The notes beneath the pieces were generated by a model, which was not told where the DNA came from, searched no databases, and saw nothing but the letters and a program-made list of their open reading frames with translations. DNA of 64,000 bases from Syntrophomonas sp. GTDB lineage: Bacteria > Bacillota > Syntrophomonadia > Syntrophomonadales > Syntrophomonadaceae. How positions within the stretch are numbered: the stretch's first letter is position 1; every line of letters starts with the position of its first letter. Position numbers and translations under genes: made by a program. The DNA is taken from contig NZ_JAQVZX010000002.1 of NCBI RefSeq assembly GCF_028707975.1, forward strand, positions 1 to 64,000, given 5' to 3'. Shown piece after piece: positions 6,942 to 39,118 of the stretch.

Positions 6942-9900
6942 TTATTCGTCTGACATGGTAGCCTTCATTTGCTCATTTAAAAAACTCTTTATTTCCTCAA
7001 AGACTGCAGTTATATTTTCTAAGGTATCGGGGGTATGGCCGCTATCAGGTAGATAGAGTACCTGGGGCGTATTCCCTGCTTCTGTGAGCTCTTTGATGGC
7101 CCTTATATTTTGACTGGGATATACGGCATCATCTTGGCCGGCGTAGATAATTAAAATTGGGGATTTGAGTTTATCGGCGTAGCTTGACGGAGACAATACT
7201 TGGGCCAGCTCAGTACCAGGTTCAGGTGCAGAACATCTATGATAATCTGGAACAGGATCATCTTCTATTAATTCAAGCCCCAAATCCGTCCAGTCCCATA
7301 CGCCCATCAGAGAAATGACCGCTTTGTAGGCATCTGGATGAACTGCTGCTTGATAAAAGGAAATATATCCTCCGTAGGAGTGTCCCATAATTCCAATGCA
7401 TTCAGGATCTGCAATGCCGTTATTTATAGCCCAATTAACACTTTCGAAAACATCTTGTTGGGCTAGCAGCATATTTTGACTGGCTGAATCGGTGTATTCG
7501 TTACCATATCCGATGGAAAAGCGGAAATCAACAGACAATACCCCAATATCAAGGTTTGAAACCAACAAGGCATATTCGTTTGGGGTCCACACATATCTGG
7601 CTTGAGGTCCACCATGGACATTTACTATTAATGGTAGATTGCGCGGACTTTTGCCCAGTGGCAAGGTCAGATATCCAAATACGGTTTGACCATCACTTGC
7701 TTTGAAAGATACTGGATAGGTATGCCCAACATCCTTTACCGGTATATCCGATGACAAAAGAAGGGTATCCTTCCTGCTTTCAACATTATACAGCCTGTAA
7801 CTGCCATAATCGCGGTCATCCCGGTGCAGCAATACCAAATAGTCAAAGTCCGGACTAATGGCCACCGGGAACTGGTTTTCTCCCAAATCTGCCCGGACAT
7901 TATCCATGATGCTGGCCATTTCATCCCTTAAGCATACCAAGCGGGTTTTATCATCAATATATATAGCAGTTAAAAGTTCACCTGTTTCCGGATTTTTCAA
8001 GCTAACAACCGGAGTGCCCGCAAGTACCGAGATCAGTTCTACGGCTACATCAGCATGAGGATTATGGTAGATCAATTCTCTGCTCATGGTTTTTGGGTCA
8101 ACTTGATAAAGGCTGGCATAATTATCATAGAAATTGGTTTTCACAATCATTTTTGTATTATCTGCGGTAAAGCCGATAATTTCATAATCCCGGGTTAAAG
8201 ACAAGTCGAATTCTATCAAACGCTTCCATGGCTTTTCCGGGCTCTCCCGGTAAAGAATATATTTATCAGTAACATAATTTCTGCGTTTGGAAAGCTCAAT
8301 GGAAACAGCTCGTAAAACCTGGGAATTATCATAGATATTTATTGCGCTTTCGCCATCCTGGGCAGGGTACTCCTCTTTGGGAGAACCGTTACTCGGAACC
8401 TGATCAGACTTGCTTGCGTCTGATACAGTTATAGCTTTCAGCTCCCCTCTTTCTGTATACCATAGAACCTGACCGTCATCAGAAAATATAAATTCAGGAT
8501 AGGTATAAGTGGAGTTTGAAATATAGTAATTTATCAAGTTCAATTGTTCGGCGGGCTTTTCCGCCTCAAGTCTTTCATACCAGGCATTACGCGCGTTGAT
8601 CATCATCTGAAGAGCAGTATTTGCCGTGATTTTAATGTTTTCTTCCTGTATGGTTTTATCATTCTCAGAAATAATGCCATATTCTTTTGCCAGTTGTAGC
8701 AAATCAGCGTCTGGGGGGATGGGGACATAGGTCATTCGCAAAAGTGAATAAAGAATATCATCCCGATAAACTTCTCCTCTGGGTTCGTCTTTTATGAAGC
8801 CCTGTTTTTTGGCAATATAACCAGGGTCCTCTCCCTGCTCAAATGTAATATAAGGAATGGCCATCTTAAGAAAGCTTTCCATGTCTATAAATGAGTCTGG
8901 GGTTTGTTTATCACCCCCACCACTGCTTCCAGAGGCTGCGCCAGCAGCGGTTTGTTCTGCCTGGGCTAGGGCCTGGTCAAGCTTATAGGTCAGAAGGTCA
9001 CGGCCGGGGTCAGCCCCCTGTTCTTGGCTCCCACTGCCGGTTTGGCCTGCTTCCTGCTGGCTCTGCATCTCAGCGGCGCGTTCTCCTAACCAGCTGCGCT
9101 GCTGAGTCCAGCCGCGCGCTTCAGATGGGCTCATGAGGTGGGGAAGCGATGGCGGTCTGCTGTCACTACCACTCACGGAACTTTGTCCGGGGGATAGGTT
9201 TCGGGTCACACCGCCGCTGGTTAAGCTCGCTTCTCCCTGTAACAGGCTCATGCTGCCGCTGCTGCTGCTCGTATGATTGCTCCAGAAGCTACCATGGATA
9301 GCGGTTACTCCCCAGGGCATAGCTATTTTTATCTTGTCTTTTTTCTTATCGGCGGTTTTATACCAGGGCTGGGGGCTTGATTGAGCCGCCGCCAGCTTAG
9401 AGTGATTATCCCGACTGGCTATTTTGCTGAATTTATTATCGGCTATGCTTTCTTCGTCAATATCTTTGCTGCTGACGGTATACTTACTGGCCAGGGCGCC
9501 AAACACTTGGCCCCTAGTCAGTTCTATTTCCAGCTTGTCTACTGCCGTTCCAGGTTCTCCGCCTTTTACTATATAGGCTCGGCCGCTGGCAGTTTTAATT
9601 ATAAGCTGACTATTAGGTTTCAATAGTATACCGCTTCCGTCGGGATAGTTTATTTCGGCTTCTCCATCATTGGCGGTTATTAAGGTATCTCCTGCTCTTA
9701 CCGTAGTAGTTGTGTTTAGGGGTTGAGTTTTTTCACTGCCATCTCTTTTAAGCTTTACAGTTCCGGTTTTTATTATTAGTTGACCGGTGAGTTCCTGCCG
9801 GTTCAAGTCGGGGGCTTTGGTTAAGAGCAGGCTCAAGGACCGGGTCAGGTCTCCCCGGTTAAATGCCTGGTCGGGTTTAAAGGTATTGTTTTCGGTATCT

Positions 9901-10442
9901 ATCATGCCTGCCGCTATGGCAGTAGCTATAGCGGCTGCCGCCCAATGGTTGGGGTCTACATCCTGTAATTGGGGCAATTCGGCCTCGGTTAGGCTCTGCT
10001 CGCTTAAACGCAAAAGAAGGCTTATTCCCTGAGCCCTGGTCAGGATTTCATCGGGATGAAAGCTGCCATCCGGGAAACCAGCTATGTATTTTGCTGCTAC
10101 TGCGGAATTAATATAATTTGCTGCCCAGTGGGATGAGTCTATATCACTAAAGCTGCTGTTGCCAGGCTTAGCTTTTTGTCCTGACACCTTGCTTACTAAT
10201 ACTGCTGCTTGAGCTCGGGTTAAACCCTCACTTGGATGAAAACTGCCATCGGGGAATCCGCTGATAATGTCCCGTTTGGCCATATAGTTTATATATACAA
10301 GATTGGCATCACTACTGCTAACATCATAGAATGCTGTGACGATTGCCTCTTGCTGCGGAGCAGCTGTAGCAATTCCCGTTAGTATTAACAGGAGCAAGAA
10401 AGTAAAACTGTAGATAAAAATATTCTTCAATGATTTTGACAT
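6942..10442 (-). CDS. S-layer-anchored S9 (prolyl oligopeptidase-like) peptidase with FecR domain
   Basis: A very large exported protein of about 1166 residues. A signal peptide (IYSFTFLLLLILTGIATAA) is followed by three SLH domains (~25-200, each with a GFPDGSF- or TRAQ/NRGD-like core) that should bind secondary cell-wall polymer. A FecR-like domain (~215-300) and a low-complexity Ser/Gly/Gln linker follow. The C-terminal half is a beta-propeller plus alpha/beta hydrolase of the S9 type: nucleophile Ser1022 in GHSYGG, Asp in GQDDAVYP, His in DSGHTPD. I chose ATG 10442 because AAAGGA lies eight bases upstream; the track start adds 11 residues. No operon partner is seen. The substrate is presumably extracellular peptides. 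The FecR insertion between SLH and peptidase is unusual. Confidence 0.85.
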   Translation of the reverse strand: MSKSLKNIFIYSFTFLLLLILTGIATAAPQQEAIVTAFYDVSSSDANLVYINYMAKRDIISGFPDGSFHPSEGLTRAQAAVLVSKVSGQKAKPGNSSFSDIDSSHWAANYINSAVAAKYIAGFPDGSFHPDEILTRAQGISLLLRLSEQSLTEAELPQLQDVDPNHWAAAAIATAIAAGMIDTENNTFKPDQAFNRGDLTRSLSLLLTKAPDLNRQELTGQLIIKTGTVKLKRDGSEKTQPLNTTTTVRAGDTLITANDGEAEINYPDGSGILLKPNSQLIIKTASGRAYIVKGGEPGTAVDKLEIELTRGQVFGALASKYTVSSKDIDEESIADNKFSKIASRDNHSKLAAAQSSPQPWYKTADKKKDKIKIAMPWGVTAIHGSFWSNHTSSSSGSMSLLQGEASLTSGGVTRNLSPGQSSVSGSDSRPPSLPHLMSPSEARGWTQQRSWLGERAAEMQSQQEAGQTGSGSQEQGADPGRDLLTYKLDQALAQAEQTAAGAASGSSGGGDKQTPDSFIDMESFLKMAIPYITFEQGEDPGYIAKKQGFIKDEPRGEVYRDDILYSLLRMTYVPIPPDADLLQLAKEYGIISENDKTIQEENIKITANTALQMMINARNAWYERLEAEKPAEQLNLINYYISNSTYTYPEFIFSDDGQVLWYTERGELKAITVSDASKSDQVPSNGSPKEEYPAQDGESAINIYDNSQVLRAVSIELSKRRNYVTDKYILYRESPEKPWKRLIEFDLSLTRDYEIIGFTADNTKMIVKTNFYDNYASLYQVDPKTMSRELIYHNPHADVAVELISVLAGTPVVSLKNPETGELLTAIYIDDKTRLVCLRDEMASIMDNVRADLGENQFPVAISPDFDYLVLLHRDDRDYGSYRLYNVESRKDTLLLSSDIPVKDVGHTYPVSFKASDGQTVFGYLTLPLGKSPRNLPLIVNVHGGPQARYVWTPNEYALLVSNLDIGVLSVDFRFSIGYGNEYTDSASQNMLLAQQDVFESVNWAINNGIADPECIGIMGHSYGGYISFYQAAVHPDAYKAVISLMGVWDWTDLGLELIEDDPVPDYHRCSAPEPGTELAQVLSPSSYADKLKSPILIIYAGQDDAVYPSQNIRAIKELTEAGNTPQVLYLPDSGHTPDTLENITAVFEEIKSFLNEQMKATMSDE

Positions 10443-10660
10443 TATACATATCCTTTCTAAATGTGATATTTGCATCTATATCCGAACAATTCCTGTGATA
10501 AACCTTATTCTTTCCCTAAAGAGATAATCCTGCTACGAAGATTATAATTTTTTAGGATTAACAAACAACTCTACTTATGCTGCCGGGGATTGCTACAATC
10601 ATAAACCGAGGTTGATATCTATTATCTTATTCCCAGCCAATACTCAATCGAAAATAGTTT

Positions 10661-10684
10661 GGTGGCGTTAGCCGCCTTTTTTAT
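10661..10684 (+). terminator. orphan Rho-independent terminator
   Basis: GGTGGC-GTTA-GCCGCC (6-bp stem with one G-T pair, 4-base loop) is followed by six T residues. No plus-strand gene ends upstream between the fic gene and here. Confidence 0.7.
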
Positions 10685-10788
10685 GAGCTGTGCAAACACT
10701 AAAAATCAGATTGATGTGGGGCTACCTATCGCTGTGGAATGCGGGAATGGGAAATAAAGTTATTTCAAGTTGTGGTATGATTTATCCA

Positions 10789-10816
10789 TTGACCCTTTTA
10801 TAATCCGGGGTATTAT
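10789..10816 (+). promoter_or_regulatory. candidate promoter for the Ig-like surface protein gene
   Basis: TTGACC and TATTAT are separated by 16 bases. The predicted transcript would have a leader of about 160 bases before the 10983 start. Confidence 0.45.
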
Positions 10817-10982
10817 AGAAAGGGGATTATTATTTTTTCCATGAATAAACCAAAACTTTTGGGTACCAAGCATCTTATAGGTTTACAGGTAAGTTTAAGG
10901 GGAAATCAGCTCCAGTGCGGTATCTGATTTTCAGGGTTTTTGGGTAAATTTGGCCATGAAGATTTAAAGGGGGTTGCTATTG

Positions 10983-11840
10983 GTGATTAGTAAAATGAAG
11001 AACAAGTCAAGCCTATGGACCATTATAGTGCTGGCGGTGCTGGCTTGTGCACTATTGGTGCTGCCGGCAATGGCAGAAGGTGATGGCGATGGTAGCGGCG
11101 GAGGCAAGGGTGTCCCGCTGGGACTGGCCTCATCTAATCCTGCGGATGGACAGAAGGATGTTCCAGTAAAGGGAGACATACAACTTACTTTTAACAAGAA
11201 TGTAATATTTTTAGGGATAAGGGAGGCCAATAAAACCTGTTTTTCACTGTTCTCTGCTGATGGCAGCAAGGTGCCGATTGAAGTAATAATGGCTGATGAC
11301 CAGCTGGAATTCGAAAAAAGAAGGGATATTGCGCTGCGACCTTTAGAAGAGCTTAATCCGGGAACGGCCTATGTGGTAAGAATTTCACCCCAGTTGCAGG
11401 CGAAAAATGGTACCAGTCTGGATCATGAGGTAACGGTCAATTTCGTTACCGCAGGAAAGGCTGCGGCTGTCGAAAAGCCGGTGAGTGAACCGGTGGTTGA
11501 AAAAAATCCGGCTGAGGTAAAAAAACCAGCAGCCAATCTGACAGATAATGCTGGAGTAAGCTCTGGAGATAGCCAAGCAGCGACGGAACCGGTTGCGGAG
11601 ACTGAGAATAAAGCGCCAGCAGCAGAAAATAGCGGCAAGACGGTAAGCGAGGATAATAAAGAGGTAAAAAGCGAAGAGAACAGGACAGTAAAGGAGCCAA
11701 CAGAATCCGCCGATAAAGCGCCGCTTAAAGAAACAGAGGAAGCTGATAAGAGTCCTTTTCCAGTTTATGCAGCTATAGCCGGAGTGGTATTGGTGGCCGG
11801 AGCGGGATATATCTTTTATAGAAGAGGAAAAATGAAATAG
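10983..11840 (+). CDS. exported Ig-like (Big_5/SbsA-type) protein with C-terminal membrane anchor
   Basis: Protein of about 285 residues. An N-terminal signal segment ends near PAMAEG. One Ig-like domain of the Big_5 type follows (~residues 40-155), with the family features SSNPADGQKDVP, LTFNKNV and a closing TVNFVTAG strand. Next is a Pro/Ala/Glu/Lys-rich stalk (~160-260) and a C-terminal hydrophobic helix (YAAIAGVVLVAGAGYIF) with a basic tail (YRRGKMK). It should be displayed on the outside of the membrane. AAAGGGGG precedes several candidate starts (TTG 10974, TTG 10980, GTG 10983). The domain is paralogous to the protein at 50938. The next gene encodes a solute-binding lipoprotein, so the pair may form one transcript. 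Confidence 0.7.
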   Translation: MISKMKNKSSLWTIIVLAVLACALLVLPAMAEGDGDGSGGGKGVPLGLASSNPADGQKDVPVKGDIQLTFNKNVIFLGIREANKTCFSLFSADGSKVPIEVIMADDQLEFEKRRDIALRPLEELNPGTAYVVRISPQLQAKNGTSLDHEVTVNFVTAGKAAAVEKPVSEPVVEKNPAEVKKPAANLTDNAGVSSGDSQAATEPVAETENKAPAAENSGKTVSEDNKEVKSEENRTVKEPTESADKAPLKETEEADKSPFPVYAAIAGVVLVAGAGYIFYRRGKMK

Positions 11841-11874
11841 AGGGGTAGAATAAGAAGAAGGGAACACAATTAAG

Positions 11875-12987
11875 ATGATAGAAAAATATAATAATAAAAC
11901 TGCTTTGCGTAGCTTGCTAACTGTATTCCTACTATTGAGTTTACTGTTATCCAGTGCTTGCAGTAAAGAGGGAAACAGAGAAACACCGCCCCCACCTGAT
12001 ACTAAGACCAGGATGATTACGGATTGTATAGGACGAGAAGTAAAAGTCCCGGTCCAAATAAGCCGGATCGCCTGCCTCTGCCCGGAATCAGCTTATGCTC
12101 TGGCCATGTTTGGTGAGGGAAACAAAATGGTGGCGGTGGTAGGTGGGGTTAAGAGAGACCTTATCCTTACGGAAATGTATCCCGGGATAAAAGACCTGCC
12201 GGTACCCAAGAGCAGTGCGGTAATAAATATTGAGGAATTGGTAAAAACTGACCCCGATGTAGTTTTTGTTAAGAAAGACAGCTTCAGCAGTGAAGCGGAA
12301 GTTCAGAAACTAAACAAAAGCAAGATTCCCTTTCTGGTAGTAGATTTTAATAGTATGAAAGGGCAGCAGTACGCCATAGAAATGATGGGCCTGGTGATTG
12401 GGGCAGAGGATAAAGCCCAGAAATACAATGAATATTATCAGAATTGCATCGACCGCGTGCAAAAGCGGGTAGCAACTATTCCCCAGGAAGAACGGGTAAA
12501 GGTTTACCACTCCATTAACGAAGCTACCCGAACTGATATAAAAGGGAGTCTTTCGGCGGATTGGCTAGAGGCGACCGGAGCTGATAATGTTTCTTTAAAT
12601 AAGGATTTGAAGAGCTTGGAGGGAAAGTATTTTGCCAGTCTGGAACAGATTTTATTATGGAATCCTGAGGTAATATTGGTAAATGAAATGGGAGTAGCTG
12701 ATTATATCTTGACCAATAAACAATGGTCACCCTTGCAAGCGGTAAAAAACAAGAAGGTCTGGCAGTTACCCAATGGTATATCACGCTGGGGTCATCCTTC
12801 TTCGCCCGAAACCCCCCTGGCAATTTTGTGGACGGCCAAGACCCTGTATCCGGAAAAATTTCTAGACCTGGATATGGCGGCAGAGACCAAAGCATTTTAT
12901 AAGGATTTCTTCGGGCTGGAATTGTCGGATGATGTAGTTGACAGGATTATAGCTGGTGAAGGGATGAGAATAGCTCGTCCCCAGTAA
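11875..12987 (+). CDS. BtuF/FepB-type ABC transporter substrate-binding lipoprotein (orphan)
   Basis: Lipoprotein of 370 residues with lipobox LLSSAC. It then shows the two-lobe periplasmic-binding fold of iron-siderophore, haem and cobalamin importers: CIGREVKVPVQISRIACLCP, the NIEELVKTDPDVVFV segment, and WGHPSSPETPLAILW near the C-terminus. No permease or ATPase gene follows, so it must borrow one. The FecCD/FepC-type pair at 37275-39118 is a candidate, and its own binding protein at 36048 is a distant paralogue. Ligand is unknown: corrinoid, haem or a metal chelate. The gene starts 34 bp after the Ig-like gene; GGGAACA is a weak ribosome site. Confidence 0.8.
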   Translation: MIEKYNNKTALRSLLTVFLLLSLLLSSACSKEGNRETPPPPDTKTRMITDCIGREVKVPVQISRIACLCPESAYALAMFGEGNKMVAVVGGVKRDLILTEMYPGIKDLPVPKSSAVINIEELVKTDPDVVFVKKDSFSSEAEVQKLNKSKIPFLVVDFNSMKGQQYAIEMMGLVIGAEDKAQKYNEYYQNCIDRVQKRVATIPQEERVKVYHSINEATRTDIKGSLSADWLEATGADNVSLNKDLKSLEGKYFASLEQILLWNPEVILVNEMGVADYILTNKQWSPLQAVKNKKVWQLPNGISRWGHPSSPETPLAILWTAKTLYPEKFLDLDMAAETKAFYKDFFGLELSDDVVDRIIAGEGMRIARPQ

Positions 12988-13166
12988 ATAAATAAAGAAA
13001 ATAAAGGTTTTTTTTCAACAGATCAAGCTAAATAAGTGAAAGGCGCCCCCGTGGCGATGGCCTCAACAACAATGGAATACCGAATTTTCAGGGAGTAGTT
13101 GGGCTGATTGGCAACGGGCAGGGCGATGTTCAGGTCCGACCCTGGAAGATCGGGAGGAATTATTGG

Positions 13167-13895
13167 ATGGAAATATATGTTGCTATAGACGATACGGACA
13201 GCCTGGAACTTGGGGCTACCGGTCAATCTGCCAATGAACTGCGCAGGCTCATTGAAGACAGGAACTGGGGGAAAACTGAAGCGGTAACCCGGCACCAGTT
13301 ATTATTGCATCCGGATATACCGTATACTTCCCATAACAGCGCCATGTGTTTTAAGGCCGTTATGGGGGTTGACAAATTAGATGAATTCATTGCTTGCGCG
13401 GGCAAATTTCTCCAGGAGACCAGTGCACCGGGTTCGGATCCAGGATTATGTGTGGCCGTAAAAGAGAATATAAAAAACATGGAAGAACTGCTGAGCTTTG
13501 GATACAAGGCAAAAGAGGAAGTATTAACCAAGGCAGAAGCCTATAAGACGGCAGAACATTGTGGCCTGCATATCTCGGAACACGGCGGTACCGGACTGGG
13601 CATAATCGGGGCGTTGGCCGGCATTGGATTGCGAATAACTGGAAACGATGGAAGGTTCCAGGGGAGAATGCAGTTGGGAAATAGTGGAGAAAAAATTGCT
13701 GTAGGAGAAATTATTTCGAAAACAGAAATAGATGAAGTACAATCGATTGACGGGCAGGTACTGGCTAACCACGAAACAATGGTAATTGGTGAGAAAATTA
13801 AAACCGTTCTACTTGAGGGTAAAAGGATACTTTTGGTCTATCGTCAGGGAGGAGCCTGGCATAGCTGTAATAATAAGCAACTGAAGAATTATTGA
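13167..13895 (+). CDS. TiaS catalytic-domain-like protein, copy 1
   Basis: Protein of 242 residues. The start VAIDDTDS and the later segment RHQLLLHPDIPYTSHNSAM resemble the N-terminal kinase-like domain of archaeal TiaS (tRNA-Ile2 agmatidine synthetase; DDTDS followed by an N-P-x-I-P-x-K-T motif). GTGLGIIGALAGIGLRITG in the second half also fits TiaS. The RNA-binding OB-fold and zinc ribbon of TiaS are absent. Bacteria normally use TilS for this tRNA, so a different role is likely; this is inference. GGGAGGAATT precedes the ATG. A divergent paralogue follows at 14132, and a binding-protein gene lies upstream. Confidence 0.55.
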   Translation: MEIYVAIDDTDSLELGATGQSANELRRLIEDRNWGKTEAVTRHQLLLHPDIPYTSHNSAMCFKAVMGVDKLDEFIACAGKFLQETSAPGSDPGLCVAVKENIKNMEELLSFGYKAKEEVLTKAEAYKTAEHCGLHISEHGGTGLGIIGALAGIGLRITGNDGRFQGRMQLGNSGEKIAVGEIISKTEIDEVQSIDGQVLANHETMVIGEKIKTVLLEGKRILLVYRQGGAWHSCNNKQLKNY

Positions 13896-14131
13896 CTCTA
13901 TTGCGAATACCCCTTTTGTTGATAAGGGTTGCAAGCGGAAGCTGTTGTTCATTTGCCCTGCGGGCATAACCGGTACTCCCTGGGTAAGCTATTAAGGTTA
14001 TTGGAATGAGTATATTTAGAACTATTGGCAATGCCATCATTATTAGATTATGGGGATCATACCCAGTGTAAATACTATAGCTGTACAGATGGTTAAAAAA
14101 CAAGTATTTCAAAAGATGGAGGTTGCCGCGA

Positions 14132-14872
14132 ATGAAAATTTTTGTAGCTATTGATGACTCTCGGCAGCTTGATGGAGGTAAAGCGGGAGAAACCGCTTCT
14201 TTATTAGGTAAATTCATAGAAGAAAATGGCTGGGGCAAATGTAGCATTCCCAGCCGGCACCGGCTTTACCCTCATCCTGATACAGCTTGTAAAAAACATA
14301 ATACCGCTCGCAGTTTTTCGGCAGACATTGACGAGCAATACCTGGCAGATTTTATTGACTATGCCTGCAAACTGGTAAGATCCACGGGCACTCCTGATTC
14401 AAATGCCGGATTGGTAGTGGCTATCCCGGAGCTGATGGAAAATATTGATGAGCTGATCGAATATGCCTACCGGGTTAAAGAAGGATTGGTAAGCAAGGAT
14501 GAAACACTCAAATTCAAGAATAAGCCCGGCCTATATCTATTCGAATTAAATGGTAGTGGACGAGGAATAATCGGGGCGCTAGCCGCAGCAGGACTTCGCA
14601 TCACCGGAAATGATGGGCAGTTTAGAGGAAAATTGCAAATAGGTACCGGGGAAGACTATATAGCCTCAGTAAAGGAAATTATAGATAAAAGCTATGTAGA
14701 ACAAGTTAAAAATATGGATTTTGAAAATATCTGCGATAGTGAATATGTTCGTATGGGGGAAAAAGTAAAAGTAGTATTGCTGGATAATAAATACACCTTA
14801 ATGGTGTTTCCTACCGAGATCGAACATCCGAAGTGGCAGACCAGCACCACTCACATGCTGCGGGTATTCTAA
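14132..14872 (+). CDS. TiaS catalytic-domain-like protein, copy 2 (divergent)
   Basis: Protein of 246 residues, clearly paralogous to the 13167 product along its length: VAIDDS start, GKFIEENGWGK, SRHRLYPHPDTACKKHNTA, and GSGRGIIGALAAAGLRITG. The acidic DDTDS motif has changed to DDSRQ, so two of the residues expected to bind nucleotide or metal are altered while the glycine-rich segment is kept. ATG 14132 follows GGAGG at nine bases; the track start (TTG 14123) overlaps that site. About 235 bp separate the two copies, so they may have separate promoters. Function is unknown. A heteromeric pair with one degenerate subunit is one possibility. Confidence 0.5.
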   Translation: MKIFVAIDDSRQLDGGKAGETASLLGKFIEENGWGKCSIPSRHRLYPHPDTACKKHNTARSFSADIDEQYLADFIDYACKLVRSTGTPDSNAGLVVAIPELMENIDELIEYAYRVKEGLVSKDETLKFKNKPGLYLFELNGSGRGIIGALAAAGLRITGNDGQFRGKLQIGTGEDYIASVKEIIDKSYVEQVKNMDFENICDSEYVRMGEKVKVVLLDNKYTLMVFPTEIEHPKWQTSTTHMLRVF

Positions 14873-14900
14873 CGGCTGCCTGCAAATAGCACCTCCCCTC

Positions 14901-14929
14901 GGTGTCAAGGGGACGGTCCTTTTGACACC
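14901..14929. repeat. short palindromic element
   Basis: GGTGTCAA...TTGACACC forms an 8-bp inverted repeat around GGGGACGGTCCT. It sits in a 335-bp non-coding gap (14873-15207). The GGGGAC core resembles the short hairpins at 18712 and 22790, so it may belong to a dispersed family. Confidence 0.6.
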
Positions 14930-15059
14930 GCAACCCCTCACCCCTTACTTTTCTTACTAACCACCTATGGTTCAGGGGCCACAACCACCGATGAAAATAG
15001 GGGAAGCAACAAGTGCAAATTTTTTTGACGCTGATTATCGCTGATTTATTAAGATTTTA

Positions 15060-15200
15060 TAAGATAGTATCAGCGTTAATCACCCTGCGGGTACCACTGA
15101 TGCTCCCTGCGGTTGCTATTAAGGTTGCTGCGCCCGAAGGGTCAGCGTCCTTCTGCGTCTAAACCCAAATTTTCTTATTAACTTAATAGCGACTGCAGGG
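15060..15200 (-). repeat. partial copy of a modular interspersed repeat
   Basis: Read on the minus strand, this stretch contains CTTAATAGC..CGCAGGGAGCATCAGT and TACCCGCAGGGTGAT. The same modules recur at 60340-60540 (plus) and 27086-27232 (minus). Copies are diverged and rearranged. No ORF is present. Confidence 0.6.
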
Positions 15201-15207
15201 AGCAAAA

Positions 15208-17520
15208 TTACATCAGTTTGCAAAAAGTTTTAACCAACTCGGGGTCGAATTGGGTACCGGCACATTTTCTTATTTCTTCGCGGGCTTCGGCAATACTCAT
15301 GGCTTTTTTATAAGGACGACCCGAAGTCATAACATCAAAGGCGTCAATTATGGCCAGGATGCGAGAGATAAGGGGTATTTCTTCTGCTTTTAAGCCCAGG
15401 GGGTAACCCTTGCCATCCCAGCGTTCATGATGGGCCAGGATGGCTCCGGCAATGGGTGCGAGTTCGGGTAGGGTTAAAGCAATGCGGTAACCGGTTTCGG
15501 GATGTTTTTTAACTACTTCCCATTCATCCGGGGAAAGCGGAGCAGGTTTACTCAGGATTTCATTGGGAATGGCGATGTTCCCCACATCATGCAAGACGGC
15601 CAGAAGCCTGAGATCGTCTAAATCGCTCTCGGGTAAGCCCAGCCTGGCACCTAATTGTTCGGCCAGCTCTTTTACCTGCTGGCAATGTTCTTCCGTTTCG
15701 TGGCTTTTGGCCCAGAGGGTCTGCTGCAAGGAAAGCAGGAAGGAGCTACGGGCACTCTTGCTCTCCAGTAATTTATTGCGGTACATCTTATCTTCTGCTT
15801 CCTTAATAATAGTTTGTACATCCTGCAGGCGGTCATTTTTGCTGGCAGTCCCCAGGGAGATGCTTATGGGAATGGGAAAATCGCTGCTGCTTTGGGATTT
15901 TTCTTGAATTCGCTCACATATTATTTCCGCACAATGGGCCTTGGTTTTAGGCAGCAATATTATAAACTCGTCCCCCCCCCAGCGAGCTATTATATCCTCT
16001 TTGCGACAGGAATTTCTAAGTATTTCCGCGGCCTTTCGCAATAGCCGGTCGCCACTTTCATGTCCCAGGGCATCGTTGATGAGCTTCAAGCCGTTGACAT
16101 CACCCATAATCAGGCTCAGGGGCAATTGTCTTTCCGTGTCGAGGCGGCTTAATTCTTCTTCGAAAAAGGCCCGGTTATATAGTCCGGTTAGTTTATCATT
16201 AAAGCTTAAATACTTGACCTGGGCTTCGGCTTTTTTGCGCTCGGTGATGTCCATGAAGGAAACTACGGAGTCGCTGGTTCCAGGAATCAAATCTACCGTG
16301 ATGAAGATATCTTTGATTTTTTGTTCTTTGTCCAGCAGTTTAAATTCATAGTGGGAAGGACCAAGCTCCGGGTCGATTCTCCGTTGTTGATGATATCCTA
16401 TCATTCGTTCCCGGTCGTCCGGGTGTACGAAAACAGGCCATTTCATTTTCTTTTCAATCTCTTCTTTGCTATAACCGGAAAGTTCTTCAAACTCACTGTT
16501 AACCAGGGATATCATTAAATCTTTATCAAAAATCATCATGGCCGTTCCCGTGGTCTCAAAAATGGTGCGGTAAAGAACTTCGGACTGGCGCAGGGCCTCC
16601 TCAAAGTGCTTGCGTTCGCTGATATCAAAGAGGGAACCGATAAGGGCCGGCTGTCCTTCATATTGAATGGGGTTGGCATATATTTCCACCCAGATTTCTT
16701 TCCCGCTCCGGGTTAGCAGTTTCATTTCATACTTTTCAAATTCGCTTTCCCCACTTTGCCAGGCCAGTGCTTTATTTATAACCGAGTCCCGGAAATCAGG
16801 ATGAATAAAATCTCCAAAATCCATATCCAGGTACTCTTCTTCATCGTATTCAGTTAGGGCGGAAAATCGGGGATTGACATAACGCAAGCGGTTGTTTTGC
16901 AGGACAAATATCAGGGCGGGAGATGATTCGGCCAGCCCGCGGAAACGGGCTTCGCTGTCCCGCAAGGCCTCCAGGGTTTGGCGGAAATCACTTATATCGC
17001 GAAAAGACTCAATGGCTCCGGCTTTTGAACCGGAATAATCATAGAGCGGGGAAGCGGAAATACGCACAAAAATGCCAGACTCACCAATATGGGGGCAAAA
17101 GGCTTCCGCCGTCAGGGTTTCATCTTTTTTATTCAAGCAATCATATCGGCCGGAAAGCGAAATCTCTGGGTTGAGAATTAGGTCAATCAGCACGGGCCTG
17201 CGTTCACCGTAAAAGGGAAGGCTGTAGGCATAATTATCTTTTCCGATAATATCTTCTGCTTTTACTCTAGTCAAATCCTCCATGGCTCGGTTCCAGGAAA
17301 AGACTTTCCCCTGTTTATCTACCACAAAGGTAGCATCAGGCAGGAAATCGATTATGTTTCTTAATTGCTGCCTGGAATCCTGCAGGGCTTTTTCTAGCTC
17401 TTGGTACTGGGCCTGTTCCCTGAGCAGGTTTTGACAGTTTTCCCTGGCCTGTTCTAACTCTTTTTGCAATTTCGTAATCTCATTCAGCAAAGCCATCGAT
17501 GGCTTGTCTTTATTTTCCAT
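15208..17520 (-). CDS. PAS-PAS-PAS-GGDEF-HD-GYP signalling protein
   Basis: Cytoplasmic protein of 770 residues with no membrane segment. A short coiled coil (residues 5-55) is followed by three PAS domains with PAC-like tails (~56-180, 185-305, 310-430). A GGDEF domain carries an intact WGGDEF motif (~514), and a C-terminal HD-GYP domain carries HDVGNIAIP (~643) and HHERWDGKGYP (~697). It could both make and hydrolyse cyclic di-GMP, responding to a ligand or redox signal through PAS. The gene stands alone. A scrap of a closely related PAS sequence (ALTEYD.EE) occurs near 27060, so a paralogue once existed there. GGGGA precedes the ATG. Confidence 0.92.
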   Translation of the reverse strand: MENKDKPSMALLNEITKLQKELEQARENCQNLLREQAQYQELEKALQDSRQQLRNIIDFLPDATFVVDKQGKVFSWNRAMEDLTRVKAEDIIGKDNYAYSLPFYGERRPVLIDLILNPEISLSGRYDCLNKKDETLTAEAFCPHIGESGIFVRISASPLYDYSGSKAGAIESFRDISDFRQTLEALRDSEARFRGLAESSPALIFVLQNNRLRYVNPRFSALTEYDEEEYLDMDFGDFIHPDFRDSVINKALAWQSGESEFEKYEMKLLTRSGKEIWVEIYANPIQYEGQPALIGSLFDISERKHFEEALRQSEVLYRTIFETTGTAMMIFDKDLMISLVNSEFEELSGYSKEEIEKKMKWPVFVHPDDRERMIGYHQQRRIDPELGPSHYEFKLLDKEQKIKDIFITVDLIPGTSDSVVSFMDITERKKAEAQVKYLSFNDKLTGLYNRAFFEEELSRLDTERQLPLSLIMGDVNGLKLINDALGHESGDRLLRKAAEILRNSCRKEDIIARWGGDEFIILLPKTKAHCAEIICERIQEKSQSSSDFPIPISISLGTASKNDRLQDVQTIIKEAEDKMYRNKLLESKSARSSFLLSLQQTLWAKSHETEEHCQQVKELAEQLGARLGLPESDLDDLRLLAVLHDVGNIAIPNEILSKPAPLSPDEWEVVKKHPETGYRIALTLPELAPIAGAILAHHERWDGKGYPLGLKAEEIPLISRILAIIDAFDVMTSGRPYKKAMSIAEAREEIRKCAGTQFDPELVKTFCKLM

Positions 17521-17940
17521 ATTAAAGTCCCCGCTTTTTAGTTCTTTTAAGGATTATTAAATTCTTTGAAAGGTTATTACACCGGGAGCGATGTTTTAAT
17601 AAAAGCTTGGTGATGAATGCTATGATGAATGCTATGATGAAAGTGCAAAAAAAGGCTAAATACCTATGTTTGTAATAGAATCCTTTGGAAAAAGTAGGAC
17701 AAATTGCCCGTTATTCTATCTGATAATTGTCTTATTCAACGAAAAACGAGCTCTTTCCTGCAAAAATAAAAAAATGTAATTAGTTTAAGTTATGTTTTGT
17801 GGAAGAGCCTTCTTAAAAAATCTTCAACTCCGCACTGCCTCATCATTACGAAATTTCTTTCTATCAAAATATTTTTTATAATGCGACTTTTGGGGGGAAG
17901 CTTTGCCTAAATATTGGTGATTCAGAGCCCCTTGGCCCTC
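17521..17940. other. intergenic region with a short tandem repeat
   Basis: About 420 bp without a supportable gene. A 12-bp unit (GATGAATGCTAT) is repeated slightly more than twice at 17612-17640. The rest is AT-rich and carries no clear terminator or riboswitch that I can recognise. Confidence 0.5.
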
Positions 17941-18579
17941 CTATCCAATTGGCGGGATAACTGTCCATTTTACATCCGCGGAATGGTTATAGGCTACAGG
18001 GTATACTTTGCCCATTTTGATAGCCTCAATCAAATCTTTTTCATCTCTTAGTCCATTCGGGAATACGGTGGCAAACTTGCCCAGTGCCTCCGTGTTATGA
18101 GCATCACTGGCTCCAAAAACCGGGATGCCCAGTTCCATGGCCAAATCATAGGCTTTCATATTGTTGGCATGGTCGGTACTGCCATTAAAGGCTTCAACCC
18201 CATGAAGGTCTTTATGCTCCCGGATAGAATTGCCCATACCCCGGTTGTTCTGTCTGAACGGATGAGCACTTATCGCTACGCCGTTTGCTTTATTAACCAA
18301 ATCCAGCAGATAACGGGCCGATACTCTTTCTTCGGGAAGGCGTTCCAGACCAAATACAATCACATCACCTTCCCAAGTAAAAACCTCCGCACCAACAAAG
18401 ATTGGATAACCCATCTGTTTCCTGTACTCATGCGCCCTGGTCATTATTTCCTTGCTATCATGATCGGTTATGCAGATGCCATCCAGACCAATAATCCTGG
18501 CCTGGGCAACGATTTCCGCCAATGTCATCTTACTATCGTCCGAAGTTGGATAGGCGTGAATATGGGTATCAATAATCAT
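17941..18579 (-). CDS. PHP-domain metal-dependent phosphoesterase
   Basis: Protein of 212 residues with the PHP fold: DTHIHAYP motif 1, ITDHDS, GAEVFT, AISAHPF and GASDAHN, which together supply the His/Asp metal ligands. PHP proteins hydrolyse phosphoester bonds of small molecules or nucleic acids. The second ATG (18579) is preferred because GGAAGG ends nine bases upstream, whereas the first ATG abuts the ribosome site. It lies about 120 bp beyond the last gene of two tandem Fbp-type importers on the same strand. It may process a phosphorylated substrate brought in by them, but this is inference. Confidence 0.85.
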   Translation of the reverse strand: MIIDTHIHAYPTSDDSKMTLAEIVAQARIIGLDGICITDHDSKEIMTRAHEYRKQMGYPIFVGAEVFTWEGDVIVFGLERLPEERVSARYLLDLVNKANGVAISAHPFRQNNRGMGNSIREHKDLHGVEAFNGSTDHANNMKAYDLAMELGIPVFGASDAHNTEALGKFATVFPNGLRDEKDLIEAIKMGKVYPVAYNHSADVKWTVIPPIG

Positions 18580-18699
18580 TATTATCATCCTTCCTTACAG
18601 AATAATCCTCCCCATCAAGCGGGGACGGGTTTTGACTTTTAAAAAAATGTAAATGCCGCAACAAAACCTGGTTTTGTTGTCATGAGACTTTTTAAGCTC

Positions 18700-27720: not shown

Positions 27721-28140
27721 GGTGCTGTACAGAAGATGAGGGAGGGCCCCTCGGAGTCGGCTTGCCGGTGTAGGCTTCAAACCACCTTAAGCTGCTGGGG
27801 TAAAGAGTTCTGGATGACCCGTAATTTATCCCCGACTTGAGCCCGGTTTCCGTCTCCAGGATATTGAAGCGACTTTTGCTTCATGGCCAGATCAAAAAGT
27901 TGTGCGAACCCACAAATACTATCTTACGAAACTCGGGAAAGCCGTCATCACTACAGGGCTTAAGACAAAAGCGCTTTTTATCATTCCCAGTCTGGCTGAA
28001 ATAGAGGTTTCTGTTGCTTAATTTACTTTCCAGTTTGCGAAGATCTTTGGGATTAAGGGACTAAAATACAATAATTAGTTATACTTTATATAATAATATA
28101 TTGTATTATAGTACTTATATTTATAGTTTTATGGATTAGA
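27721..28140. other. decayed intergenic sequence upstream of the corrinoid operon
   Basis: The minus strand contains short open stretches with in-frame stops (for example FRKIVFVGSHNFLIWP-stop, then QYPGDGNRAQVGDKLRVIQN) that look like remnants of genes I cannot name. The last 80 bases are very AT-rich (TATAATAATATATTGTATTATAG) and probably hold the promoter of the 28151 operon. Confidence 0.5.
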
Positions 28141-36047: not shown

Positions 36048-37133
36048 ATGAAATGGATAAGTAAACCAATGACTTTAATCTTATTTATTGCACTTATCGG
36101 GTTGATATTTGTCGGCGCAGGTTGTAGCAAGACAACAACCCAGACAAGTCAAGTTAATGATAAAAAGTCGATAATTGACCAATTAGGTAGATCAGTTGAA
36201 ATACCCAATAAAGTAGAACGAATTGTTACTTTGCCTATGCCATTGCCTTCAATTATCTATGCCGTAGATGGGAGTGGCAGTAAGGTTGTGGGCATGCACC
36301 CTACCTCTGCAAAAGCTCTTAATACCGGAATCCTGGCTACCCTTGCCCCCGAATTAAAGAAGACACCTACATCTTTTGTTCAAGAGGGATTTACGGTTAA
36401 CATTGAAGAATTGCTTAAACTTAAACCGGATGTGGTAATTCAATGGGGTACCGAGGAAAAAGAAATCAAAAAAATGGAAGTTGCAGGTTTACCCGTAATA
36501 GCACTCACACAGGGAACCCAGGGTGACCTTGAAGGTTGGATAAAAATTATTGGGCAAATACTTAATAAAGAAGACCGAGCCTCAGAACTAATAGCGTTTC
36601 AGCAGAAAACCATCAACGACATCAAGTCAAAAACTTCCAGTATTCCCGCTGAAAAGAAACCTAAAGTCTATTATTTTCTAAATGAAAATCTGCAAACGGC
36701 AGGTACAGGTACACACCATAATAACTGGATTGGTATTGCCGGCGGAAAAAATGTGGCCGCAAGTCTCAATGGATTTCCGAATGTTAATATGGAACAGCTA
36801 CAAACATGGAATCCGGATATAATCCTAATCAGCAATTTCACTGATCTGCAACCTGACGATATTCTTCAAAACAAGATCAAGGGGCAGGACTGGAGCAAAA
36901 TAGATGCTGTTAAAAACAAAAAAGTCTATAAGATTCCTCTAGCAGGCTATAGATGGGATGCTCCCTCGGTTGAATCACCGCTGATGTTAAAATGGTTGGC
37001 GCAAGTGCAGTACTCAGATATTTTTAAGGATTATTCCATGGTCGATGAGTTGAAAAACTTCTGTTCTACTTTCTATAAATATGATCTTTCTAACGAAAAG
37101 GCCGCTGAAATCCTAAATATATCTAAGCAATAA
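36048..37133 (+). CDS. BtuF/FecB-type ABC transporter substrate-binding lipoprotein
   Basis: Lipoprotein of 361 residues, lipobox VGAGC. Features of the cobalamin/siderophore binding family are DQLGRSVEIPNKVERIV, TVNIEELLKLKPDVVI, and YRWDAPSVESPLMLKWLA near the C-terminus. It is followed by the matching permease and ATPase, so it defines a complete importer. With corrinoid proteins nearby, a corrinoid or cobalt chelate is a reasonable ligand, but haem or iron chelates remain possible. No cobalamin riboswitch is visible upstream. Confidence 0.88.
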   Translation: MKWISKPMTLILFIALIGLIFVGAGCSKTTTQTSQVNDKKSIIDQLGRSVEIPNKVERIVTLPMPLPSIIYAVDGSGSKVVGMHPTSAKALNTGILATLAPELKKTPTSFVQEGFTVNIEELLKLKPDVVIQWGTEEKEIKKMEVAGLPVIALTQGTQGDLEGWIKIIGQILNKEDRASELIAFQQKTINDIKSKTSSIPAEKKPKVYYFLNENLQTAGTGTHHNNWIGIAGGKNVAASLNGFPNVNMEQLQTWNPDIILISNFTDLQPDDILQNKIKGQDWSKIDAVKNKKVYKIPLAGYRWDAPSVESPLMLKWLAQVQYSDIFKDYSMVDELKNFCSTFYKYDLSNEKAAEILNISKQ

Positions 37134-37156
37134 TCAACGCATCGATGATGGACATA

Positions 37157-37195
37157 AGGAGGGGCTGTAACCAAACAGTCGCTCCCTTCCTTCTT
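37157..37195 (+). terminator. possible attenuator between binding-protein and permease genes
   Basis: AGGAGGGGCTGT and ACAGTCGCTCCCTTCCTT form an imperfect stem (bulge CG) around AACCAA, ending in TTCTTTG. It lies in the 140-bp gap between the BtuF-type and permease genes. Confidence 0.4.
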
Positions 37196-37274
37196 TGATA
37201 AGGCATCATTCCAAGTAGTAGTCAATTGGAATAAATTACAATGAAGAATTTAGAGCATAGGGGACAAATAATTA

Positions 37275-38315
37275 ATGCTTAATAAAACGTATGTGCAAAC
37301 AAATTCCAGTTCCGTATTTTCAATAAAACTTGCTCTAATTTATCTATTACCTCTGGTAGCATTATTTCTGGGTCTTTTTTTGGGAAGATACCAGGTTTCA
37401 ATCGAGAATGTGTTCAAGATTCTTCTCTCTCCCATTTTTCCACTTGAACCGGGAATATTGGACATAGAAAAATCCGTTGTTCTCGGTCAAAGACTGCCAA
37501 GAGTTCTATTAGCTATGTTGGTAGGGGCAGGTTTGTCAGTATCGGGAGCAACGTTTCAAGCGCTCTTCAGGAACCCGATTGTAAGTCCTGATATACTTGG
37601 TGTGACCCAGGGTGCCAGTTTTGGGGCCATACTGGCACTACTCCTGTTCGGGCAATTAGCAATCATCCCATTTGTTGCCTTACCGTTTGGATTATTGAGT
37701 GTGTTTATGATCTATGCCATGAATAGAAATCGGCAGATTGCATCCCGTTTATACCTGGTATTAACGGGGATCGTGGTGTCATCAGTATTTACCGCCTTGA
37801 TATCGCTTATAAAATATATTGCAGATCCATTCAATAAATTACCAACCATCACTTATTGGTTAATGGGAAGTTTTGCTAGCACTTCTTATTCCGATCTCAG
37901 GCTGGTTTTCTTGCCAATTATAAGCGGAATAGTTTTTTTATTGCTTTTGCGGTGGAGAATAAATATTTTGTCTCTGGGTGATGAAGAGGCCCAATCTCTG
38001 GGGATTAATATCGAGAAATTGAAGTGGTTACTTATTGGCGCTGTAAGCGTGGTGTGTTCCTCGGCGGTTACTGTTTCAGGCATAATTGGATGGGTCGGCC
38101 TGGTAATTCCCCACATCGGAAGATTACTGGTTGGGCCCGATCATAAAATATTACTGCCGGTAAGCACTATATTAGGTGCATCATTTATGGTTTTTATCGA
38201 TATTATTGCTCGGACCGCCACCGCTGCGGAGATACCTATTGGAATACTTACGGCTATAATCGGGGCACCCTTTTTCGCTTATCTATTAATGAAGTCAGGA
38301 GGTAGCTGGATGTGA
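37275..38315 (+). CDS. FecCD-family ABC transporter permease
   Basis: Permease of 346 residues with about ten hydrophobic segments. Family hallmarks are RLPRVLLAMLVGAGLSVSGATFQALFRNP (quoted in part: LSVSGATFQALFRNP), LGVTQGASFGA, and the GIIGWVGLVIPHIGR segment that touches the ATPase. It transports cobalamin, haem or siderophores. It overlaps the ATPase gene by four bases (GTGA). Confidence 0.93.
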   Translation: MLNKTYVQTNSSSVFSIKLALIYLLPLVALFLGLFLGRYQVSIENVFKILLSPIFPLEPGILDIEKSVVLGQRLPRVLLAMLVGAGLSVSGATFQALFRNPIVSPDILGVTQGASFGAILALLLFGQLAIIPFVALPFGLLSVFMIYAMNRNRQIASRLYLVLTGIVVSSVFTALISLIKYIADPFNKLPTITYWLMGSFASTSYSDLRLVFLPIISGIVFLLLLRWRINILSLGDEEAQSLGINIEKLKWLLIGAVSVVCSSAVTVSGIIGWVGLVIPHIGRLLVGPDHKILLPVSTILGASFMVFIDIIARTATAAEIPIGILTAIIGAPFFAYLLMKSGGSWM

Positions 38316-39118
38316 AACTTGAGGTCTTATCCGGTGAGTTTGGGTATGCCAATCAGAAAAATCTATTTAAAAACTTATCTTTTACATTAAAAGAGGGAGA
38401 GATTCTGGCTATAGTTGGGCCCAACGGAGCTGGGAAAACCACTCTTCTCAAATGCATAATTTCTATCTTGAAGTGGAGATCCGGGAAGACAGTAATTAAT
38501 GAAAAGGAACTGGAATCCATGAAAATGGCAGATGTATGGAAAAATATTGCTTATGTTCCTCAGAGCCACGAGGTGGTCTTTGCCTACACTGTATTGGAAA
38601 TGGTGCTTATGGGACGGGCCCCGCATTTGTCCTTATTTGCCATGCCCTCATCCAGGGATTTGAAGATTGCTAAAAAGTCAATCGAAACAATAGAAATATC
38701 TCATCTGGCTGACAAGCCCTGTTCAGAGTTAAGCGGTGGAGAAATGCAACTAGTTCTGATTGCCAGAGCCTTAGCGTCTGAGCCTGATGTACTGGTTCTG
38801 GACGAGCCCGAATCACACCTGGACTTCAAAAATCAGATGTTGATCCTTCGAATATTGGAAAGATTGGCTAAGGAAAATAAGATTTCCTGCATAATTAATA
38901 CTCATTATCCAGACCATGCTCTGCGTATTGCAGATAAGGCTTTGATGCTGGGAAAAGGTCAAAAACATGTTTTTGGTAAGGTGGATGAGGTTATTACTGA
39001 ACAAAACCTTCGAAACTTCTTTGCTGTTGACGTAAAAATAGTTTCTTTAATCTTTGAAGGAATGGAAATAAAAACTGTTGTTCCAATAGATTTCAATAAA
39101 AAAATAGCTAATTTTTAA
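38312..39118 (+). CDS. FepC/BtuD-type ABC transporter ATP-binding protein
   Basis: ATPase of 268 residues. Walker A GPNGAGKTT (~36-44), Q-loop YVPQSHEVVFAYTV, signature LSGGEMQLVLIARAL, Walker B VLVLDEPESHLD and the H-loop NTHYPDHAL are intact. GTG start translationally coupled to the permease. It completes the importer with 36048 and 37275. Genes for two GATase1-like proteins follow 16 bp later in the same direction. Confidence 0.92.
   Translation: MKLEVLSGEFGYANQKNLFKNLSFTLKEGEILAIVGPNGAGKTTLLKCIISILKWRSGKTVINEKELESMKMADVWKNIAYVPQSHEVVFAYTVLEMVLMGRAPHLSLFAMPSSRDLKIAKKSIETIEISHLADKPCSELSGGEMQLVLIARALASEPDVLVLDEPESHLDFKNQMLILRILERLAKENKISCIINTHYPDHALRIADKALMLGKGQKHVFGKVDEVITEQNLRNFFAVDVKIVSLIFEGMEIKTVVPIDFNKKIANF

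Follow-up and report, generated by a model that had tools for sequence, protein, structure and literature searches.

What a relative of an archaeal tRNA-modifying enzyme might be doing in a bacterium, in two neighbouring copies and next to a transporter gene, is the question raised by a locus in a 64,000-nucleotide stretch of a Syntrophomonas genome (hereafter, the window; contig NZ_JAQVZX010000002.1). The first of the two genes (13167..13895, plus strand) encodes a protein of 242 amino acids, A, in which an intact TiaS-like kinase domain (TCKD, residues 1-156) is followed by an 85-residue C-terminal domain; the second (14132..14872, plus strand) encodes B, a degenerate TiaS-like paralogue of 246 amino acids, for which we favour the ATG at 14132, with a GGAGG just 5' of it, over the TTG at 14123 that would open the longer reading frame. 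A and B share 39% identity over their length, and between A and the corresponding protein of S. wolfei subsp. methylbutyratica the identity is 88%; a contig search with one protein as query returned matches in Syntrophomonas only. Synonymous divergence from that subspecies across window positions 11875-18588 ranges from 0.05 in a PHP gene to 0.43 in A and in the BtuF gene upstream of it, with 0.18 for B within the same 7 kb, and this unevenness is possibly the mark of a recombination mosaic.

The kinship with TiaS, the archaeal tRNA-Ile2 agmatidine synthetase (NF040849, PF22641; PDB 3amt, 4rvz), which an earlier note had read from shared motifs, is borne out by domain, profile and structural comparisons alike. 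A lies narrowly over the Pfam cut-off for TiaS_TCKD (27.5 versus 27 bits), and in NCBIfam both A (methanogenesis marker protein 11, Mmp11, E 1e-14, 54.3 bits; TiaS, E 4e-10, 39 bits) and B (Mmp11, 2.5e-7; TiaS, 1.2e-7) match the same two families, with scores far under the equivalog cut-offs and confined to the catalytic domain. A profile of 19 A-type sequences retrieved TiaS entries only from the PDB (E 3.5e-7 to 1.1e-6), and Foldseek ranks 1-8 were all TiaS for A (E 1.5e-8) as well as for B, the query models being poor AlphaFold predictions built from four sequences only (pLDDT 62.6 and 57.4, respectively). The NCBIfam, PDB profile and Foldseek matches rule out a chance likeness. A has the kinase domain, the DDTD motif, Thr18 and the GxGIIGALA block in common with TiaS, but the similarity ends near residue 156 (the model match reaches 153 of 422), TiaS is about 420 residues long, and the 39 bits of A compare with a TiaS cut-off of 600; the OB and zinc-ribbon domains are missing in both A and B, so that the RNA-binding domains are indeed absent, as had been claimed. 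A search of the genome for the ferredoxin-like domain PF08489 gave no match, B alone having one below the cut-off (E 0.015).

Two archaeal proteins besides TiaS resemble A. Mmp11 (TIGR03280) is its best NCBIfam match and contains the same domain in its C-terminal part, although the match covers only profile positions 135-282, scores 54.3 against a cut-off of 255.8 bits, and leaves to Mmp11 about 130 additional N-terminal residues that A does not have. The stand-alone TiaS-like protein of Pyrococcus furiosus, a tungsten-dependent archaeon, is close to A in length (PDB 3u02, 252 residues) and heads the PDB matches in the sequence comparison and, for A, in the fold comparison too; its entry title, tRNA modifier, differs from the role that we propose for A below.

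TiaS is needed for AUA decoding where TilS is absent. TilS matches were found in 63 of 63 genomes of the class, the present one included (58 over the cut-off), and tRNA-Ile2 therefore needs no TiaS in these organisms; A differs from TiaS both in sharing its genomes with TilS and in sitting in operons related to molybdenum and tungsten. The homology to TiaS would by itself argue for a conventional bacterial tRNA-Ile2 modification enzyme, but the class-wide presence of TilS, the missing OB and zinc-ribbon domains and the lack of any tRNA gene closer than 7 kb to the pair, a linkage that the earlier note had proposed to look for, leave this reading scarcely credible; we regard it as ruled out, and the non-tRNA role that had been suspected as probable.

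When 53 A-type proteins, among them one haloarchaeal and one actinobacterial relative, are aligned with 11 of B type, the two groups separate at the active site. Residues D8, D9, T10, D11, T18, R42, Q44, Y53, N57, D91, P92, G93 and G141, among others, are invariant in the A-type proteins that have a residue there, and T18 aligns with Thr18 of TiaS, the autophosphorylated residue of that enzyme. In 11 of 11 B proteins, conversely, D11 is replaced by R, H or L, T18 by A, Q44 by R and D91 by N. P92 is among the losses too, and B of the window has HPDTAC in the place of HPDIPY. The earlier statement that B has lost the acids of its DTDS motif is thus correct in part: D11 is gone, and of the group D8, D9, T10, D11 and T18 only D8 and D9 remain, both in all 11 proteins, together with R42, N57, G93 and the GxGIIGALA block. 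The B proteins form one clade (100/100 support), every genome with a B gene also has an A-type gene, and between the window and S. wolfei subsp. methylbutyratica Ka/Ks is 0.087 for B versus 0.142 for A, indicating purifying selection on B. The single clade and this ratio rule out a decaying pseudogene. Since B has lost T18 and D11 yet stays constrained, it is probably a pseudoenzyme derived from A, whose partner or regulator it would be, and we infer that the two proteins interact.

The binding protein that precedes the pair had been taken for an orphan, which it is not: the Syntrophomonas operon is split. The window carries, all on the plus strand, the gene that leads the conserved operon, encoding a Big_5 (Ig-like) surface protein with a signal peptide, a GDGSGGG motif and a C-terminal membrane anchor (10974..11840), followed by a BtuF/MolA-type lipoprotein substrate-binding protein (11875..12987; Peripla_BP_2), A and B, whereas the BtuC and BtuD genes that belong to this BtuF lie on contig 78 (G000:C78:7219-9047), where they adjoin a third, intact TiaS-like gene (L022). 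Elsewhere in the window, a 1177-residue protein on the minus strand (6942-10475) shows by eye S-layer homology repeats, a FecR-like segment and a prolyl-oligopeptidase domain, a weak group II intron match occurs at 27738-27822 (RF01999, 39.7 bits against a threshold of 36), and a further BtuF-BtuC-BtuD set (36048-39118) lies upstream of genes resembling those for corrinoid proteins and methyltransferases.

Of 399 genomes sampled across the phylum, 28 have A-type genes (a few matches being fragments), as do 29 of 63 genomes of the class; B turned up in no GTDB family other than the window's own. Across the neighbourhoods of 55 loci the conserved order is anchored Big_5, BtuC, BtuD, BtuF and TiaS-like gene, the A-type gene usually coming last; the three importer genes stand next to an A-type gene at 26 loci from 11 GTDB families, usually with Big_5 in the lead, and the expected linkage to transport genes is thereby confirmed. 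The arrangement tolerates substitutions, in that a secreted protein with an Oxidored_molyb domain takes the place of Big_5 at L098 and L109, and an ECF-type importer that of BtuCDF at L103 and L107, with an S-component similar to those encoded next to the TiaS-like genes at L104 and in the actinobacterial record L115. A TiaS-like frame adjoins a BtuCDF transporter even on a haloarchaeal plasmid (L114).

Some lesser neighbours deserve to be recorded. S-component-like proteins of ECF type with an LPGH/LPGR...W motif adjoin TiaS-like genes in three lineages (L103:4427-5029, L104:8770-9357, L115:733-1323; L115, whose 3.8 kb were deposited as a plasmid of Pimelobacter, is maybe an assembly fragment), and a protein of 83-90 residues with a CYNCRxRxW...C motif does so at L087:1635-1901, L091:4233-4487, L100:7067-7339 and L108:7923-8174, its L100 copy being without a Pfam or NCBIfam match. 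TrmO-like proteins, which add another family of tRNA modifiers to this setting, occur near TiaS-like and molybdenum or tungsten genes at L024:5512-6318, L029:13223-14035 and L111:3726-4529.

An indication of what these operons handle comes from their regulation in relatives of the window. The Moco/Tuco riboswitch RF01055 heads the transcript containing the TiaS-like gene at 28 of 48 loci scanned with Rfam, in 8 GTDB families, and in ten of these 28 switch-led transcripts the TiaS-like gene is the first behind the switch; at L026 and L027 the order is RF01055, B and MobB. All 28 TiaS-linked switches are 116-123 nt long and without the P3 stem, while the best 70 switches of the phylum survey, a list ranked by score and not a neutral sample, form two size classes separated by a gap between 124 and 129 nt, the longer class (129 nt or more) holding 45 of the 70. 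P3-less members of RF01055 have been proposed to sense the tungsten cofactor (Regulski et al., PMC2408646), a proposal that rests on a published correlation with tungsten-cofactor use and not on biochemical fact; the operons of the window's relatives are therefore led by members of the proposed tungsten class, and the TiaS-like family goes unmentioned in the available part of that paper's account of the regulon. At the window's own copy the switch is absent or has been lost: none was found at 10300-15300 at a relaxed threshold, and of the genome's 10 RF01055 switches none lies on contig 142 or on contig 78, where the third TiaS-like copy is. The same genome also has two BtuCDF-type loci behind Moco riboswitches with P3 (L116, G000:C65; L117, G000:C33), one of them with a DUF364-like gene; these two loci may be the TiaS-linked system's equivalent for molybdenum.

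The neighbouring genes tell a similar story. TupABC-like transport genes, MobB, XdhC, DUF364 and a molybdopterin oxidoreductase occur near the TiaS-like genes, as do the molybdate transporter MOT1 (L092 and L100 by Pfam, L071 by clustering) and a homologue of molybdenum-storage proteins (E 3e-76 to MosB); at L102 a single run comprises the switch, TupA-TupB-TupC, two Big5 genes, BtuC-BtuD-BtuF and the TiaS-like gene. TupA-like proteins score under the NCBIfam TupA cut-off (222 versus 400 bits). At the level of genomes, tungsten-type aldehyde oxidoreductases (AFOR_C) were found in 28 of 28 genomes with TiaS-like genes versus 200 of 371 others (p 9e-8) and RF01055 in 27 of 28 versus 193 of 371 (p 1e-6), the values becoming 1e-5 and 2e-4, respectively, when the window's family is excluded, and all of them overstating independence because the compared genomes share ancestry. 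A search of the open-access literature returned no text linking TiaS-like proteins with molybdenum or tungsten.

The note had assigned the binding protein to the cobalamin/siderophore type and suggested a neighbourhood survey for metal versus corrinoid transport; this survey pointed to molybdenum and tungsten genes. Among the best PDB matches of the window's BtuF is HI_1472 (2.3e-27, behind two unnamed entries), the molybdate- and tungstate-binding protein MolA, which is also the top match of the relative at L029 (1.7e-29); the match is not unique, as other members of the class show it too, but the vitamin B12-binding BtuF is reached at 5e-4 only. In Haemophilus, molybdate and tungstate are imported by MolABC (HI_1472; PDB 3psa, 3psh), a transporter of BtuCDF type like that of the window, but its operon is not known to contain an anchored Big_5 gene or a TiaS-like one. 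That A might be a salvage enzyme for corrinoids or siderophores would suit the BtuCDF family and a permease whose best NCBIfam score is BtuC; with 28 transcripts led by a molybdenum/tungsten riboswitch, with molybdenum and tungsten neighbours, and with no cobalamin riboswitch at any scanned locus, however, this is very improbable, and a corrinoid role is ruled out on the riboswitch and neighbour evidence.

The reading that we favour, with fair but far from complete confidence, is that the A-type proteins are cytosolic, ATP-using enzymes beside a dedicated importer for molybdenum or, probably, tungsten, with B as a pseudoenzyme partner. The anchored Ig-like protein and BtuF would capture a ligand that BtuCD would bring in, and the substrate of A would then be either this ligand or the pterin cofactor to which the metal is delivered. 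TiaS phosphorylates a ring carbonyl with ATP, thereby enabling the attack of a nucleophile, and by analogy A might phosphorylate a carbonyl of a small non-RNA substrate ahead of a nucleophilic attack. The position at the end of the operon, the persistence across importer types and the intact pattern of the ATP site make a cytosolic ATP-using enzyme the best reading of A, and the exchange of BtuCDF- for ECF-type importers may mean that the ligand is organic or chelated and not a bare oxyanion. The missing riboswitch at the window's copy and at the third copy speaks against the favoured reading, as does the presence of MogA- and MoeA-like genes in the same genome, with which the cofactor should already be made; that A replaces either of them is accordingly unsupported.

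Two other accounts assign A differently. In one, the importer carries a plain oxyanion, A performs an additional ATP-dependent step of tungsten-cofactor synthesis on molybdopterin or its dinucleotide, and the transporter link reflects co-regulation only; TiaS-like genes standing alone behind the riboswitch, away from BtuCDF (L024, L082, L083, L085, L086, L088, L108), the co-transcription of B with MobB at L026 and L027, and the TrmO-like, XdhC-like and molybdopterin oxidoreductase genes that come next at L029 all speak for it, but at most loci the TiaS-like gene ends a transporter operon, and it also stands beside the ECF-type importers of L103 and L107, so that we hold this account to be unlikely. 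In the other, A is no enzyme but an ATP-binding protein that regulates the importer in the manner of PII, a family known for gating transporters; PII (GlnK) structures indeed rank behind the TiaS entries in the Foldseek lists, at about 5e-4 to 1e-2. These matches are weak and the models poor, however, and catalysis accords better with the strictly conserved D8, D9, D11 and T18, which form the catalytic pattern of TiaS, so that such a regulator is distinctly improbable. Beyond the favoured reading of A as an enzyme beside an importer, one may tentatively conceive of a new pathway for tungsten uptake and cofactor supply, possible although we would not count on it, in which the Ig-like protein and a BtuCDF or ECF importer bring in an organic complex of tungsten, or the pterin cofactor, in place of bare tungstate, a TiaS-type kinase processes it chemically inside with the aid of its pseudokinase paralogue, and Mmp11 and the 3u02 protein are the archaeal counterparts.

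These findings caution that naming such TiaS-like proteins agmatidine synthetases is unsafe. With its riboswitch control, its dedicated importer and its pair of intact and degenerate enzymes, the system provides a testable gene set for asking how cells discriminate between tungsten and molybdenum and by what route they make the tungsten cofactor. The family, which annotation places among tRNA-modifying enzymes, appears to be part of a tungsten/molybdenum pathway, in which it would represent an unrecognised step, and its study may also illuminate methanogenesis marker protein 11.
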